Made by a program: the position numbers and the translations under genes. Below the pieces are notes generated by a model. It had not been told where the DNA came from. It made no database searches and saw only the letters and a program-made list of their open reading frames with translations. From Nitrosomonadales bacterium (lineage in GTDB: Bacteria; Pseudomonadota; Gammaproteobacteria; Burkholderiales; Gallionellaceae), in assembly GCA_016197305.1 (NCBI GenBank), contig JACPVZ010000138.1, positions 1 to 33,451 on the forward strand: a stretch of DNA of 33,451 bases, written 5' to 3'. Shown one piece after another: positions 5,341 through 10,631 of the stretch; within the stretch, counting starts at the first letter, position 1; every line of letters starts with the position of its first letter.

Positions 5341-6537
5341 TCAAAGCGCTTCGAAGATCCCCGCCGCGCCCATCCCCGTCCCGATGCACATCGTCACCAT
5401 GCCGTATTTCTGCTTGCGGCGGCGCAGGCCGTGCAGCAAGGTCGCGGTGCGGATCGCGCCGGTCGCGCCCAGCGGATGGCCGAGCGCGATCGCGCCGCCC
5501 AGCGGATTGACGATGGCCGGGTCAAGACCCACATCGCCGATCACCGCCAGCGATTGCGCGGCGAAGGCCTCATTGAGTTCGATCCAGCCCATATCGTTCA
5601 ACGACAATCCCACCTGCTTCAGCACGCGCGGGATCGCTTCCTTCGGCCCGATGCCCATGATCTCCGGCGGCACGCCCGCGACCGAGAAGCCGAGAAATTT
5701 GCCGATCGGCGTCAGGTTATAGCGCTTCAGTGCGACCTCGGAGCACAGCAGCACCGCGCCCGCGCCGTCCGACATCTGCGAACTGTTGCCCGCGGTCACC
5801 GAACCATTCTGCGCGAACACCGTTTTCAATTTACCCAACGCTTCCAGGCTGGTGTCGCCGCGCGGCCCTTCGTCCTGCGCCACCTCGCGCGTTTTCACCT
5901 TCACCTCGCGGCTGTTCATGTCGCCGATATGCTCGCTGATCCGGTACGGCGTGATCTCGTTCTCGAATTCGCCGTTGTTGATGCCGGCCAGCGCGCGCAG
6001 ATGGCTCTGCAGCGCGAACGCATCCTGCGCCTCGCGCGTGACCTTCCAGCGTTCCGCGACCTTCTCCGCCGTCAGCCCCATGCCGTAAGCGATGCCGACA
6101 TGCTCGTTCTCGAAGATGGCGGGATTGAACGCGATCTTGTTGCCCATCATCGGCACCATGCTCATGCTCTCGGTACCCGCCGCGATCATCACCTCGGCTT
6201 CACCAAGACGAATGCGATCCGCCGCCAGTGCTACCGCCTGCAAACCGGAAGAACAGAAGCGGTTGACCGTCAGCCCCGGCACGGTATCCGGCAATCCCGC
6301 CAGCAGCAGCGCGATGCGCGCCACGTTCATGCCCTGCTCCGCTTCCGGCATCGCACAGCCGACGATCACATCGCCGACGCTGGCCGGATCGAGCGACGGT
6401 GCCTGCGCCAGCACGCTCTTCAGCACATGCGCCAGCAGATCGTCGGGCCGCGTGTTGCGGAACATCCCGCGCGGCGCCTTGCCCACCGGCGTGCGCGTCG
6501 CGGCGACGATGTAGGCTTCCTGGACTTGTTTGCTCAT
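5341..6537 (-). CDS. fadA: acetyl-CoA acyltransferase (3-ketoacyl-CoA thiolase)
   Basis: 398-residue thiolase that cleaves 3-ketoacyl-CoA with CoA to acetyl-CoA and a shortened acyl-CoA, the last step of beta-oxidation. The acylated nucleophile is the Cys of NRFCSSGLQ near residue 93; the catalytic His is in GGAIALGHPLGATG and the second Cys in CIGTGMGAAG. GCAMPEAEQGMNVAR and the overall pattern are close to B. subtilis FadA, which pairs with FadN as here. The start at 6537 has GAGAGG five bases upstream. The gene follows fadN in the same direction but is now separated from it by about 1.55 kb of REP/RAYT material. A second, broken copy of its first 17 codons lies at 7981-8031. Confidence 0.95.
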   Translation of the reverse strand: MSKQVQEAYIVAATRTPVGKAPRGMFRNTRPDDLLAHVLKSVLAQAPSLDPASVGDVIVGCAMPEAEQGMNVARIALLLAGLPDTVPGLTVNRFCSSGLQAVALAADRIRLGEAEVMIAAGTESMSMVPMMGNKIAFNPAIFENEHVGIAYGMGLTAEKVAERWKVTREAQDAFALQSHLRALAGINNGEFENEITPYRISEHIGDMNSREVKVKTREVAQDEGPRGDTSLEALGKLKTVFAQNGSVTAGNSSQMSDGAGAVLLCSEVALKRYNLTPIGKFLGFSVAGVPPEIMGIGPKEAIPRVLKQVGLSLNDMGWIELNEAFAAQSLAVIGDVGLDPAIVNPLGGAIALGHPLGATGAIRTATLLHGLRRRKQKYGMVTMCIGTGMGAAGIFEAL

Positions 6538-6565
6538 GATGACCTCTCAATTATTTGCGAAACAC

Positions 6566-6610
6566 GTAGGGGCGTATGGCATACGCCCTTTGGGTATAGC
6601 AATACGCCCT
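6566..6610. repeat. REP family ii copy plus degenerate copy after the RAYT stop
   Basis: A complete palindrome beginning GTAGGGGCGTATGGC lies at 6566-6588, and a decayed half-copy (GGGTATAGCAATACGCCC) at 6592-6609. The latter abuts the RAYT stop codon at 6610-6612. The complete copy is 28 bases upstream of the fadA start, so it lies in the fadA leader. Confidence 0.85.
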
Positions 6611-7173
6611 TATGGATGCAAGGAATCTTCCATCCATCGTTGCGGGTTGTTGGCAATATATTCGGCAATGCAATTGTAATCGTCATCGTTACGGATGACG
6701 TGTTCGTAATAGTTGCGCTGCCATACCGGCTCGCCGGGAGTGCCGCGAATTTCATTGATACGCCTACTCACGGCAGATTTAAAACCACGCACCATCGCCC
6801 CGATATTACGCGATGGCGACGTAGGGGCGTATGGCAATACGCCCTTGTTGTGGGAATACGCCATTTTATGTTCATCACGGGACGAGGGCGTATTGCCATA
6901 CGCGCCTACGATGTGGACGATGCCGTGCAAATGATTGGGCATCACCACAAATTCACCGCATTCGATTTCTGATCGAACATCTGCCGATCTCAACCACTCC
7001 GATGCAACGATCTCGCCATATTTGTTCAATCGCATCATGCCTCCCTCGATTTCACCAAACAAACATTCCCGGTTACAGACGCAAACAGTCACAAAATACG
7101 CCCCGGCTTGCGAATAATCATATCCCTTCAAACGAAGGCTACGACGGTGACGCTCACTTGGTTGATCGGACAT
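6610..7173 (-). CDS. REP-associated tyrosine transposase (RAYT, Y1/HUH family)
   Basis: 187-residue single-strand transposase of the IS200/IS605-related RAYT group. RRSLRLKGYDYSQAGAYFVT opens the Y1 domain, and the HUH metal motif is MPNHLHG with His81 and His83. The candidate catalytic tyrosines are Tyr155/Tyr156 in WQRNYYEHVIRND, and the C-terminus (YIANNPQRW) is typical. ATG 7173 is chosen with GGAAG six bases upstream; the longer open frame upstream only reads through a REP. Residues about 89-118, between the HUH motif and the tyrosine, are encoded by an inverted pair of REPs (6821-6909) kept in frame. REPs of the same family also sit before and after the gene. Both motifs are intact, so it may be active. 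Confidence 0.92.
   Translation of the reverse strand: MSDQPSERHRRSLRLKGYDYSQAGAYFVTVCVCNRECLFGEIEGGMMRLNKYGEIVASEWLRSADVRSEIECGEFVVMPNHLHGIVHIVGAYGNTPSSRDEHKMAYSHNKGVLPYAPTSPSRNIGAMVRGFKSAVSRRINEIRGTPGEPVWQRNYYEHVIRNDDDYNCIAEYIANNPQRWMEDSLHP
6821..6909. repeat. inverted REP family ii pair inside the RAYT coding sequence
   Basis: GTAGGGGCGTATGGCAATAC starts the copy at 6821-6844, and an inverted copy with one mismatch ends in CTAC at 6886-6909. A degenerate fragment (GGGAATACGCC) lies between them. On the minus strand the pair is translated as VGAYGNTP... to ...GVLPYAPTS within the transposase. Confidence 0.88.
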
Positions 7174-7184
7174 GTTCGTCTTCC

Positions 7185-7256
7185 GTAGGGGCGTATGGCC
7201 TACGCCCTGTGTTGCGCGGTTACCGGTTATCAAGGGCGTATGCCATACGCCCCTAC
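7185..7256. repeat. inverted REP family ii pair before the RAYT
   Basis: Copies at 7185-7207 (GTAGGGGCGTATGGCC head on the left) and 7234-7256 (CTAC on the right) form a head-out inverted pair 12 bases before the RAYT start. The flank at 7257-7272 resembles the last codons of fadN (GGAATTAAAT on the minus strand), the same flank as at the REP copy 8064-8087. Confidence 0.88.
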
Positions 7257-7307
7257 GATTTAATTCCTCAATGTTTTGTCATCGGCGGCAAACGCGATGC
7301 ATATCAC

Positions 7308-7889
7308 CTATTTTGAATATGGACAGTCATCCTCTACTAGGTAAAAACACTGCAAGCCTTGCGTAGAAATAGGCGTAATTTTTCCGCTTTGCCGATCTAT
7401 CATCCACGCCAGCTTCACATGTTTGGAATAATGAGCACATATCTCTTTGCCTTTTTCCGGCTTGATTAGACCAACAATAATCCGTTCGTCGTCTTCACCA
7501 AATTCGCATTTTTGGCTAAAGCTAAGGCGGTCCTTTATGAATTTGAAATGATCAGAAACATTTTTAAGTTCTCCACCTACAAAATGCCAATTGATTAAAT
7601 TTTTTGGCAACATCAGCACATCAAGAATTTCACCAGGTCCACCCACAGCGATTCGCTCCACAATAAGCACAGGCCACTTGCCAGCGACCACCCCTTCTTC
7701 AATTCCAAATTCACCCACGCCACTACTACCCATAGAAATAAAATTTGAAGTACTTTCACTTGACTGCAATTTCATACCGATGAGCGCTCGTACCTCGTTC
7801 GGCATGACATCATCCGCACCCAGCGCAATGCTCGATATCATTGAAATACCGCCAGCCAAAACAAAAAACCAAAATAATTTCTTAGCCAT
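7308..7889 (-). CDS. AT-rich secreted protein of unknown function
   Basis: 193 residues from ATG 7889 (a GTG 21 bases upstream is possible). MAKKLFWFFVLAGGISMISSIALG is a signal peptide, so the protein is probably periplasmic or outside the cell. The mature part has four Cys (KCEF, EICAHY, LQCFYL, DDCPYS) that could form two disulfides. I recognise no family or catalytic motif. Base composition and codon use are clearly more AT-rich than in the flanking fad genes, and no good ribosome binding site precedes the start, so it looks like imported DNA. It lies between a fadA 5' remnant and the RAYT/REP cluster, as if cargo of that rearrangement. Confidence 0.65.
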   Translation of the reverse strand: MAKKLFWFFVLAGGISMISSIALGADDVMPNEVRALIGMKLQSSESTSNFISMGSSGVGEFGIEEGVVAGKWPVLIVERIAVGGPGEILDVLMLPKNLINWHFVGGELKNVSDHFKFIKDRLSFSQKCEFGEDDERIIVGLIKPEKGKEICAHYSKHVKLAWMIDRQSGKITPISTQGLQCFYLVEDDCPYSK

Positions 7890-7980
7890 AAAATTTAAGG
7901 AGCTCGACACGAGTTTTCATTACATCTACTTTATAGCGACGCGAGAGCAATGTAGAACAAGCACCTTGCCAACAGGAGTG

Positions 7981-8031
7981 CAGGGTGCGGGGTGCGGTGG
8001 CGATGTAGGTTTCCTGGGTTTGTTTGCTCAT
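7981..8031 (-). pseudogene. remnant of the fadA 5' end (first 17 codons)
   Basis: From ATG 8031 the minus strand reads MSKQTQETYIATAPRT, against MSKQVQEAYIVAATRT at the true fadA start. The similarity also covers the ribosome binding site (GAGAGG) and the leader back to the adjacent REP. After about codon 17 the match stops and the frame runs 30 more codons into the next gene's start before a stop. It is a broken duplicate lying right behind fadN, where fadA would be expected in an undisturbed fadNA operon. Confidence 0.8.
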
Positions 8032-8063
8032 GACGACCTCTCGATTTTTGGCGATTTGGATTC

Positions 8064-8087
8064 GGGCGTATTGCCATACGCCCCTAC
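8064..8087. repeat. REP family ii copy right after fadN
   Basis: An inverted-orientation copy (CTAC at the right end, GGGCGTATTGCC at the left) begins three bases after the original fadN stop codon at 8091-8093. It lies between the fadN tail and the fadA remnant. Confidence 0.85.
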
Positions 8088-8090
8088 AAT

Positions 8091-8246
8091 TTAATTCCGC
8101 AACGGCTTCCCGTTCTTCAGCATATGCTCGATGCGCGCCTGCGTCTTCTCGGTCGCCAGCAATTCCATGAAGTGCTTGCGTTCCAGATCGAGCAACCAGT
8201 CCTCATCCACCACACTGCCCGCCTCCACATCGCCGCCGCACATCGT
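8091..8246 (-). pseudogene. detached C-terminus of fadN beyond an in-frame TAG
   Basis: Reading on in the fadN frame after the TAG at 8247-8249 gives 51 more sense codons ([17 protein letters not shown]... to ...[10 protein letters not shown]) and a TAA at 8091-8093. CGGDVEAG and the final GKPLRN are what the C-terminus of this enzyme family looks like, so the gene formerly ended here. There is no frameshift, only one stop codon; CAG, AAG, GAG, TAC or TAT would each be one base away. Confidence 0.88.
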
Positions 8247-10631
8247 CTAGGCGACGCGGCAGCCGATGTCGTAGTCGTGCTCGGAGATGAAGCCGCCCTG
8301 CAGCATGTTGACCATCGCGGCCTTCAGCGTGGCAATGCCGGTGCGTCCGGCGACGGCGATCTGGCGCTGGTGCAGCGGCGGACGGTAGGCGGTGGCGTTG
8401 AGCGCCTTAGCTTCCTCCTTGGCGATGTGCAGCAGTTCGAATTTATTCAGCACGATGCGATCCGAGGCTCTCAGGTAGCCCATCTCGCGCGCCAGCTCGG
8501 CGCTCTTGGAAACCTCGCCCATCGCGACCTGCTGGAAGTAGCGGCGCACGAACGGGAAGATGTCGACGCGGTTGTCGTTGGCGAAACGCTGCGCTTCCTG
8601 CGCCGCGCGCTGCGCCATCTCCTTGCAGCCGCCGCCCGCGGGCAGCAGGCCGACGCCAACCTCGACCAGGCCGATGTAGCTTTCCAGCGTGGCGACGATG
8701 CGCGTGCAGTGGATGGAGAATTCGCAGCCGCCGCCGAGCGCCAAGCCGTCCACCGCCGCGATGGTGGGCACCTGCGCGTATTTGAGGCGTTGCGAGACCT
8801 GCTGGAATTTGGCGACCACGGCCTCGACATGCGGCACGTTGCCGATCGCGGCATCGAACAGGTCGCCCATGCTGCCCTTGCCCGCGATGGTGTACTTGAC
8901 GCGGTTCGCGGCCTGCTTGAGCTTGCCAAACATGCCGGCATCCGGCGCCGGTTCCTGCACACCCTGCATCAGTTGCAGCAGGTTGGCGCCGGCCGAGAAC
9001 GGCGGCTCCACTTGCCAGAGGATCAACGCGCTGAAATGCGCTTCGGCCTCGTTCACCGCGCGCAGGATGCCGTCCAGCACCTCGTTGCTGACGGTGTGCA
9101 TCTTGGTCTTGAAGCTGAGGATGGCGATGTTGTCGCCCATGTGCCACAGACGCACCTCGTCGGTCTCGAACACGGTCTCGCCGTAGTGGCGTTGTTCGCC
9201 GATGAGTGCGTCGGGGAACAGCTGGCGTTTGTAGACGGGGAGCGTGGAGCGGGGTTGATAAGGAGTGCCGGTGGATGCGCTGTCGCTTATCCACCCTACA
9301 GGAGCGTAGGAACCCTGCGGCGTGTGAACACCGGTGCGGTTCGATTCCACCACCCATGCCGGCAGCGGCGTGTTGGCCATCGCCTTGCCGGCGGCGATGT
9401 CGGCGGCGATCCAGCCTGCGACCTGCTGCCAGCCCGCGGCCTGCCAGATCTCGAACGGGCCGCTGTCCCAGCCGAATCCCCAGCGCACCGCAAAATCCAG
9501 ATCGCGCGCGTTGTTGGCGATCTGATCCAGCTGCAGCGCGCAGTAGTGGAACACGTCGCGGAAGGTCGCCCACAGGAATTGCGCCTGAGGATGCGGGCTG
9601 TTGCGCAGCCCGGCGAGCTTCTTGGCCCAGTCGCGTTCGCGCAAAATCTCCTTCACGCCGTCGTCCACTTGCGCGTCGGACAGCTTGTATTCGCGCGTGT
9701 GCAGGTCCAGCACGTGGATCTCCTTGCCGATCTTCTGGTAGATGCCGCGCTTGGTCTTCTGCCCCAGCGCGCCCTGGTCCACCAGATAGGCAAACCATCC
9801 CGGCAGCTCGAAATGCCGGTGCCAGGGATCGTCGGTCAGGTTCTCGCGCATCGTGTTGACCACATGCGCGAACACGTCGAGGCCGACCACGTCCAGCGTG
9901 CGGAACGTCGCGCTCTTGGGGCGGCCGAGATAACGTCCGGTCAGCGCGTCCACCATGTCGAAGCCGAGCTTGAACGCCTGTGCGTGATGCTTGGTCGCGA
10001 GCATCGAGAACACGCCGATGCGGTTGGCGATGAAGTTGGGCGTGTCCTTGGCGCGCACCACGCCCTTGCCCAATGTCGAGACGAGGAAGGTCTCCAGCTG
10101 GTCGAGCAGCAGCGCCTCGGTGGCGCGGCACGGAATCAGCTCGACCAGATGCATGTAGCGTGGCGGGTTGAAGAAGTGGATGCCGCAGAAGCGATGGCGC
10201 AGCGCTTCCGGAAAGGCCTCGGCGAGCTGGTTGATCGACAGCCCGGAGGTGTTGCTGGCGAAGATCGCATGTTCGTTGACGTACGGCGCGACTTTTTTGT
10301 ACAGGCCGGACTTCCAGTCCATTCTTTCCGCAATCGCCTCGATGATCAGATCGCACTCGCGCAGCTTGTCCAGATGCTGCTCGTAGTTCGCCGGCTGGAT
10401 GTAGCCGATCTTCGCCGGGCTGGCGATGGGGGCGGGGTCGAGCTTCTTCAGGTTATCCAGCGCCTTGTTGACGTTGCCGTTCGGGTCGCCTTCCCCCATG
10501 TCGCTCTTCTGGGCTGGCAACTCGAACAACAGCGTCTCGACGTTGGCGTTGACCAGGTGCGCGGCGATCTGCGCGCCCATCACGCCCGCACCCAGCACCG
10601 CCACCTTACGTATCTGAAAATTACCGCTCAT
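8247..10631 (-). CDS. fadN: 3-hydroxyacyl-CoA dehydrogenase/enoyl-CoA hydratase, truncated by an in-frame stop
   Basis: Beta-oxidation enzyme that hydrates enoyl-CoA and oxidises 3-hydroxyacyl-CoA with NAD. The dehydrogenase half comes first, as in B. subtilis FadN: nucleotide fold VAVLGAGVMGAQIA at residues 9-22, and catalytic His in CGIHFFNPP. The hydratase half follows, with GLALGGGCEFSIH and GLVEVGVGLLPAGGG holding its two glutamates. ATG 10631 has GGAG seven bases upstream. The frame stops after 794 residues; the full length would be 846. Residues about 444-454 (VGWISDSAST) are encoded by a REP palindrome between the two halves. fadA lies downstream beyond the REP/RAYT insert. Whether the shortened enzyme works is unknown, as the lost part is the extreme C-terminus. 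Confidence 0.92.
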   Translation of the reverse strand: MSGNFQIRKVAVLGAGVMGAQIAAHLVNANVETLLFELPAQKSDMGEGDPNGNVNKALDNLKKLDPAPIASPAKIGYIQPANYEQHLDKLRECDLIIEAIAERMDWKSGLYKKVAPYVNEHAIFASNTSGLSINQLAEAFPEALRHRFCGIHFFNPPRYMHLVELIPCRATEALLLDQLETFLVSTLGKGVVRAKDTPNFIANRIGVFSMLATKHHAQAFKLGFDMVDALTGRYLGRPKSATFRTLDVVGLDVFAHVVNTMRENLTDDPWHRHFELPGWFAYLVDQGALGQKTKRGIYQKIGKEIHVLDLHTREYKLSDAQVDDGVKEILRERDWAKKLAGLRNSPHPQAQFLWATFRDVFHYCALQLDQIANNARDLDFAVRWGFGWDSGPFEIWQAAGWQQVAGWIAADIAAGKAMANTPLPAWVVESNRTGVHTPQGSYAPVGWISDSASTGTPYQPRSTLPVYKRQLFPDALIGEQRHYGETVFETDEVRLWHMGDNIAILSFKTKMHTVSNEVLDGILRAVNEAEAHFSALILWQVEPPFSAGANLLQLMQGVQEPAPDAGMFGKLKQAANRVKYTIAGKGSMGDLFDAAIGNVPHVEAVVAKFQQVSQRLKYAQVPTIAAVDGLALGGGCEFSIHCTRIVATLESYIGLVEVGVGLLPAGGGCKEMAQRAAQEAQRFANDNRVDIFPFVRRYFQQVAMGEVSKSAELAREMGYLRASDRIVLNKFELLHIAKEEAKALNATAYRPPLHQRQIAVAGRTGIATLKAAMVNMLQGGFISEHDYDIGCRVA
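9270..9299 (-). repeat. GTAG-headed REP (family iii) inside fadN
   Basis: On the minus strand GTAGGGTGGATAAGCG leads into an imperfect palindrome closing in GCGCATCCACC. The sequence is the kind of REP often seen between genes in beta- and gammaproteobacteria. Here it is within an open reading frame and keeps it open, encoding VGWISDSAST. Confidence 0.75.

Follow-up and report, generated by a model that had tools for sequence, protein, structure and literature searches.

A REP palindrome within the coding sequence of a group-4-like RAYT transposase and its recurrence in related genes

Why should a transposase gene carry, within its own reading frame, the element on which its product presumably acts, and is it the DNA or the encoded peptide that recurs? 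These questions are raised by a contig of 33,451 nt from a Nitrosomonadales bacterium (GCA_016197305.1, JACPVZ010000138.1; the whole stretch is referred to as the window), in which a RAYT (TnpA-REP) coding sequence on the minus strand (6610-7173, 187 amino acids from its ATG) is bounded by REP elements and contains a further pair of them. An alternative ORF of 207 amino acids with a TTG start at 7233 runs through an upstream REP. The identification of the gene as a RAYT in the first-pass annotation is borne out by its motifs, which align in 48 rows, and by its predicted structure. In this alignment N80, H81 and H83 of the HUH motif NHLH (residues 80-83; 6925-6936, minus strand) are invariant, and Y172 in YIANNP (6658-6660, minus strand), the presumed catalytic tyrosine judging from the family, is nearly so. 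Foldseek ranks 4er8_A, a structure of the E. coli RAYT together with a REP hairpin, first among solved structures (E 2.9e-7), ahead of the IS608 and ISDra2 transposases. The profile matches are significant but stay under both cut-offs, with 22.6 bits against 23 for Pfam Y1_Tnp (PF01797) and 67.6 bits (E 1e-18) against 80 for NCBIfam NF047646; these cut-offs are thresholds for annotation and do not describe a biological trait, and the match is divided in two by the insert. A thiolase gene lies on one side of the RAYT; on the other are an unclassified ORF and then a gene for a 3-hydroxyacyl-CoA dehydrogenase/enoyl-CoA hydratase-like protein. The ORF of 200 amino acids directly upstream (7308-7910, minus strand) had no match in a Pfam and NCBIfam search.

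The REP family at this locus follows the pattern GTAG GGGCGTAT GGCA ATACGCCC, and all five copies that had been named, at 6566, 6821, 6886, 7185 and 7234, are present, with the internal elements belonging to the same family as the flanking ones. The downstream copy (6566-6588, plus strand) is located between the RAYT stop and the thiolase start. Inside the gene, a unit oriented with the gene (GTAGGCGCGTATGGCAATACGCCC; 6886-6909, minus strand) comes first and is followed by an inverted second unit (GTAGGGGCGTATGGCAATACGCCC on the plus strand; 6821-6844). Upstream, one copy (7185-7207, plus strand) is accompanied by a second that is inverted relative to it (7234-7256, minus strand), forming a REPIN-like pair. 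The flanking REPs are likewise inverted with respect to each other, with 26 nt fully complementary between 6565-6590 and 7232-7257. Calling all of these copies complete was slightly too strong, because the copy at 6886-6909 has one stem mismatch (GTAGGCGC where GTAGGGGC is expected) and the innermost pair of the stem is missing from the copy at 7185. In addition, partial units lie across the RAYT stop codon (6594-6611, plus strand) and between the two internal units (6848-6865), and another full copy of the family is found at 8064-8087 (minus strand). As the nearer upstream REP abuts a ribosome-binding-like GGAAGA stretch and ends 11 nt before the ATG (region 7174-7207), it could affect the start of translation. 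The REP might have been absent from the rest of the genome, an outcome held to speak against the annotation, and it was found there: the pattern has 12 exact sites in 1.99 Mb, four of them within the window, against none for a reversed control pattern. The internal pair of 89 nt, used as a BLAST query, gave 28 matches in the same genome with both strands counted, and both figures may be underestimates given an assembly completeness of 79.7%. A chance origin of the pattern is rejected on the basis of the empty control and of the controls in the survey described below (N- and C-terminal parts and other RAYT-like genes).

REPINs consist of an inverted REP pair with a spacer, an anatomy shared by the internal pair and by the upstream pair (7185-7256), but the internal spacer is 41 nt long and coding whereas that of the upstream pair has 26 nt. 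The whole in-frame insert (6820-6910, minus strand) encodes residues 89-118 (VGAYGNTP...GVLPYAPT) and thus lies, as had been described, between the HUH motif and the catalytic tyrosine with a length of about 30 residues. It forms a 29-nt inverted repeat that is 93% complementary, and the sense-strand RNA of 6815-6915 folds with -50.8 kcal/mol (z -7.4), a stability equalled by none of 200 shuffles. The short internal hairpin of the gene (stem 8) is borderline when synonymous codons are shuffled (p 0.055), and in the test for a footed hairpin the antisense copy passes while the sense copy fails due to its mismatch. In the AlphaFold2 model, with a pLDDT of 84 overall and mostly above 90 in the core, the means of ten-residue blocks across 91-120 are 45-54. 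Destruction of the Y1 fold by the insert had also been considered as a possible objection. The model instead keeps the Y1 core and places the insert in a low-confidence loop from beta3 to alphaC, so that the fold appears to be intact, based on the confidence of the predicted core and the match to 4er8_A.

The locus is best read as a group-4 (subclass 2.4-like) RAYT. As far as the available parts of Quentin et al. 2018 (PMC6006769) go, subclass 2.4, which is listed there as group 4 of Bertels, shares with the RAYT of the window an NHxH motif, WQ, YIxNNP and a long and variable insert joining beta3 to alphaC, as well as GTAG REPs at the flanks and in frame between HuH and Y. The signature in Table 1 of that paper reads NH[IFV]H, from which NHLH departs at one residue, whereas WQ and YIANNP agree. 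In-frame REP insertions at the HuH-Y site are reported there to predominate in this subclass, and the recurrent design suspected in the first-pass annotation was therefore already in print. The E. coli RAYT (PDB 4ER8, subclass 2.2), for which a GTAG REP is given as the substrate in the parts available of PMC8266576, has the same Y1 HUH fold but differs in its signature (DHLH, WE, YIHYNP; PMC6006769, same parts), and subclass 2.2-like genes of the order to which the window belongs have short stretches from HUH to W without such an insert. In-frame REP dimers of 20-30 residues within unrelated genes are described in Di Nocera et al. 2013 (PMC3733652, in part). Those REPs and RPEs sit in any gene, while here the host is the presumed transposase of the family and the site recurs. 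The available parts of PMC8049555, PMC8266576 and PMC12306157 contain no mention of REPs inside RAYT genes. According to Nunvar et al. 2010 (PMC2817692, in part), two inverted REPs bracket the RAYT ORF in every case, which does not hold for many of the genes surveyed here.

The survey of group-4-like RAYTs combined a contig scan with a profile of six RAYTs, paralogues in 50 of the scanned genomes and relatives of the window. Its 169 loci were reduced to 120 distinct genes by removing 41 duplicates and 8 loci without the motif, and the sample leans towards window-like proteins since the 80 loci taken from the scan are the best-scoring of 565 relatives. Close orthologues are few, as a phylum-wide search gave hits in 8 of 398 genomes (own genome included) and a search of one family in 6 of 74; viral contigs contained one distant relative and plasmids two matches. 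In this set, a stem of at least 8 was found at the insert site in 111 of 120 genes, compared to 6 and 8 of 120 in the longer N- and C-terminal parts of the same genes and 1 of 28 other RAYT-like genes from relatives of the window (30 offered, 28 parsed). Of the nine remaining inserts, five form stems of length 12 to 21 around loops of 30-40 nt, and four (L083, L092, L094, L190) have no stem of at least 8 even if long loops are allowed. A GTRG-footed hairpin is present in 99 of the 120 inserts and in none of the 120 N or the 120 C parts; in the footed-hairpin test, 20 of the 120 inserts lacked one. Taken alone, GTAG[GA] or its complement discriminates poorly, as it occurs in 110 inserts yet also in 19 N and 20 C parts. 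When synonymous codons were shuffled, the stem was exceptional (p<=0.05) in 101 of 120 inserts versus 3 of 120 C parts. The element sits at a single site across the surveyed genes, and the palindrome is kept at the DNA level beyond the needs of the peptide. In three genes (L081, L077, L088) the inserts have grown into tandem peptide repeats, such as ELHSPENAN several times over, as if REP-derived coding DNA grew by slippage.

The internal element matches the REPs flanking its own gene and rarely those of paralogues. With a score of at least 16, the insert matched the gene's own flanks in 61 of 120 genes, against 3 and 1 of 120 in the two controls and 4.0% for the flanks of other loci; in L032, L099 and L189 the N part likewise matches its own flanks. 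Within the 22 genomes that have at least two group-4-like RAYTs (56 genes), own flanks were matched by 22 genes and paralogue flanks in 2 of 98 comparisons, both of which trace to one gene (L030). The own flank outscored the best paralogue flank in all 22 matching genes, and an insert match was common to 3 of 49 paralogue pairs. Because 59 of the 120 genes and 34 of the 56 in multi-RAYT genomes have no flank match, this test of family identity covers from under half to half of the sets. Among the 88 loci with full flanks of 600 nt, a footed REP was found internally in 72 and in the flanks in 45, with 37 internal-only, 10 flank-only and 6 with neither (p 1e-4). A search with the double-foot pattern, which overlooks single-foot REPs, found exactly one site in 7 of 25 genomes (G065, G066, G067, G068, G071, G475, G501), and in 7 of 7 this site was inside the RAYT match. 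With a looser pattern applied to six genomes, G065 and G071 still had only the site inside the RAYT, G066 had this site and one stemless sequence, and G067, G068 and G070 had more copies. In the genome G072, which contains L093, 12 of 19 double-foot REPs among the matches listed belong to one stem family (GACCGG); the only group-4 RAYT found there at E<=1e-25 carries ACGG, unlike this majority.

The 49 double-foot palindromes represent 35 distinct sequences and had to have at least 10 of 12 pairs fitting to be included. Their twelve outer pairs are in Watson-Crick form in 47-49 of the 49 cases, while each of the four inner pairs occurs in three or four pair types. Thirty of the palindromes are read in one frame and 19 in another, and the third would contain TAG, and three of the eight shared sequences occur as the same palindrome in both frames. 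On a weakly supported tree of the protein core (141 columns, with good support for 15 of the 117 inner branches and labels on 49 rows), the stem family as defined by the four inner bases required 28 changes compared to a shuffled mean of 38.3, and none of 200 shuffles was as low. The frame required 13 changes compared to 15.1, with 31 of 200 shuffles as low, and thus gave no lineage signal on this tree. The stem sequence follows the protein lineage and the frame does not detectably do so, which would suggest that the DNA rather than the peptide is what recurs. Conservation at the peptide level is disfavoured, as one palindrome gives different peptides depending on a frame that has no tree signal. 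A single ancestral insert inherited vertically without renewal is also disfavoured: frames are mixed, and L051 differs in stem family from L045 and L063 although core identity is about 77%. Inheritance in part is nonetheless indicated, since one stem family is common to both members in three of the four double-foot pairs with core identities of 70-79%.

Taken together, we consider it probable, with some reserve, that a permissive, floppy loop of each RAYT gene holds a copy of the enzyme's own substrate, renewed by the RAYT. Either the RAYT, acting on single-stranded DNA at replication forks, or a process of copying between neighbouring inverted repeats would (re)install the REP of the gene repeatedly, and the target loop would tolerate a REP in two of the three frames. 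The internal copy would then travel with the gene as a linked substrate and would most likely be the private seed of the REP family, possibly with an extra effect on the expression of the gene; it may be selected or merely tolerated. Alternatively, REPs could land frequently near a RAYT and persist, without function, where the beta3-alphaC loop offers a survivable in-frame site. That the loop is predicted to be disordered, that PMC6006769 (in the parts available) puts it away from the DNA and the active site, that many unrelated genes contain in-frame REPs (PMC3733652, in part) and that both open frames are in use are consistent with such neutral tolerance. Nevertheless, internal copies outnumber those in the combined 1,200 nt of flanks, which should be at least as tolerant, and the internal palindrome is intact in G065 and G071, where no other copy was found, so that we regard this possibility as serious but doubtful. 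Template switching, in which the arms of an inverted repeat correct each other and perfect palindromes persist without selection or renewal, is a published mutation mechanism (PMC8794818 and PMC7202029, in part). It would account for changes in both arms that keep the symmetry (L058 GTAGATGC...GCATCTAC versus L051 GTAGGGGC...GCCCCTAC) and for the outer pairs, which are Watson-Crick nearly throughout in palindromes that had been selected for at least 10 fitting pairs of 12. It leaves unexplained, however, both the match to own rather than paralogue flanks and the mixed reading frames, and we hold it to be rather unlikely.

Two other explanations would give the internal copy a function in expression or in the protein. 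The enzyme could limit its own expression by binding the hairpin, either in the mRNA from which it is translated or in the single-stranded DNA of its gene. The sense RNA hairpin is very stable, and in 49 double-foot inserts and 19 with a head-out pair, out of 120, the GTAG...CTAC symmetry makes a footed hairpin available whichever strand is considered. Together with the REP that ends just ahead of the ATG and the published regulation of ISPpu9, another REP-associated transposase, by 5'-UTR structure and small RNAs (PMC8450116, in part), this is compatible with autoregulation. On the other hand, the available parts of PMC8266576 do not report RNA binding by RAYTs, and autoregulation seems improbable. 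It is far less credible still that the encoded peptide is itself a functional part, for instance a loop recognizing the REP. Its similar position beside the HUH strand and the peptides of VGA...AP type common to many inserts would fit, but one palindrome yields different peptides by frame, the frame signal is missing from the tree and the loop is predicted to be disordered. A bolder reading, which we put forward tentatively and think rather unlikely, takes the internal palindrome of group-4 RAYTs to be the primary site, required for function, with flanking and genomic REPs as secondary copies that grew from it and the internal-only genomes as the ground state instead of remnants. If true, an enzyme and its private DNA address would be written in the same nucleotides.

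The feature in the window is real and ordinary for its subclass, and adds a member to the published subclass 2.4 phenomenon; the pairing rule and the signal at the DNA level raise it above a single curiosity. The main-text parts available of PMC6006769, in which the upkeep of RAYT-REP pairing and the reason why hosts keep RAYTs are raised as questions, do not contain the comparison of own with paralogue flanks, the tests of frame and synonymous shuffling or the internal-only genomes. Neither the contrast in prevalence, the private match, the internal excess and the differing tree signals of stem and frame, nor a claim that every RAYT has an internal copy private to itself, was found in the open-access literature searched, which covered main-text parts of PMC6006769. 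Provided that group-4 RAYTs do carry a palindrome of their own, single genes, even from metagenomes, would be enough to propose pairs of enzyme and substrate, and specificity could be tested by swapping pairs. The survey in addition provides a natural set of more than 100 genes whose coding sequence retains a DNA palindrome in more than one frame.

Congeners offer a view of the same chromosomal place. In L252, an open orthologue with 76% core identity carries the same REP family; compared to the gene in the window, its REP arms differ at 2 of 48 bases and its remaining sequence at 89 of 475 (p 0.008), but at third codon positions alone the arms showed no extra conservation (2 of 16 versus 48 of 159, p 0.16). 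The orthologue L251 (G512:C34) is frameshifted by a deletion of 19 nt inside the insert, apparently between short direct repeats, which would suggest, an assembly error being possible, that carrying the insert may have a cost. Two more diverged RAYTs at the same place, L253 (63%) and L254 (54%), are possible orthologues with other REP families (ACGG and GGTTT types) inside. A search for a footed REP found none in the flanks of L253, while in L254 the internal REP family is present upstream too. The gap between the thiolase and dehydrogenase-like genes (window 5341-8247) thus hosts RAYTs of different lineage in L252-L254, with core identities of 54-76%, and other RAYT-like genes lie close by the same gap in G009:C15 and G011:C76. 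In L253, the usual site is not the only one with REP-like peptides, as they also follow FGEI within the N-terminal half and appear in the C-terminal tail.
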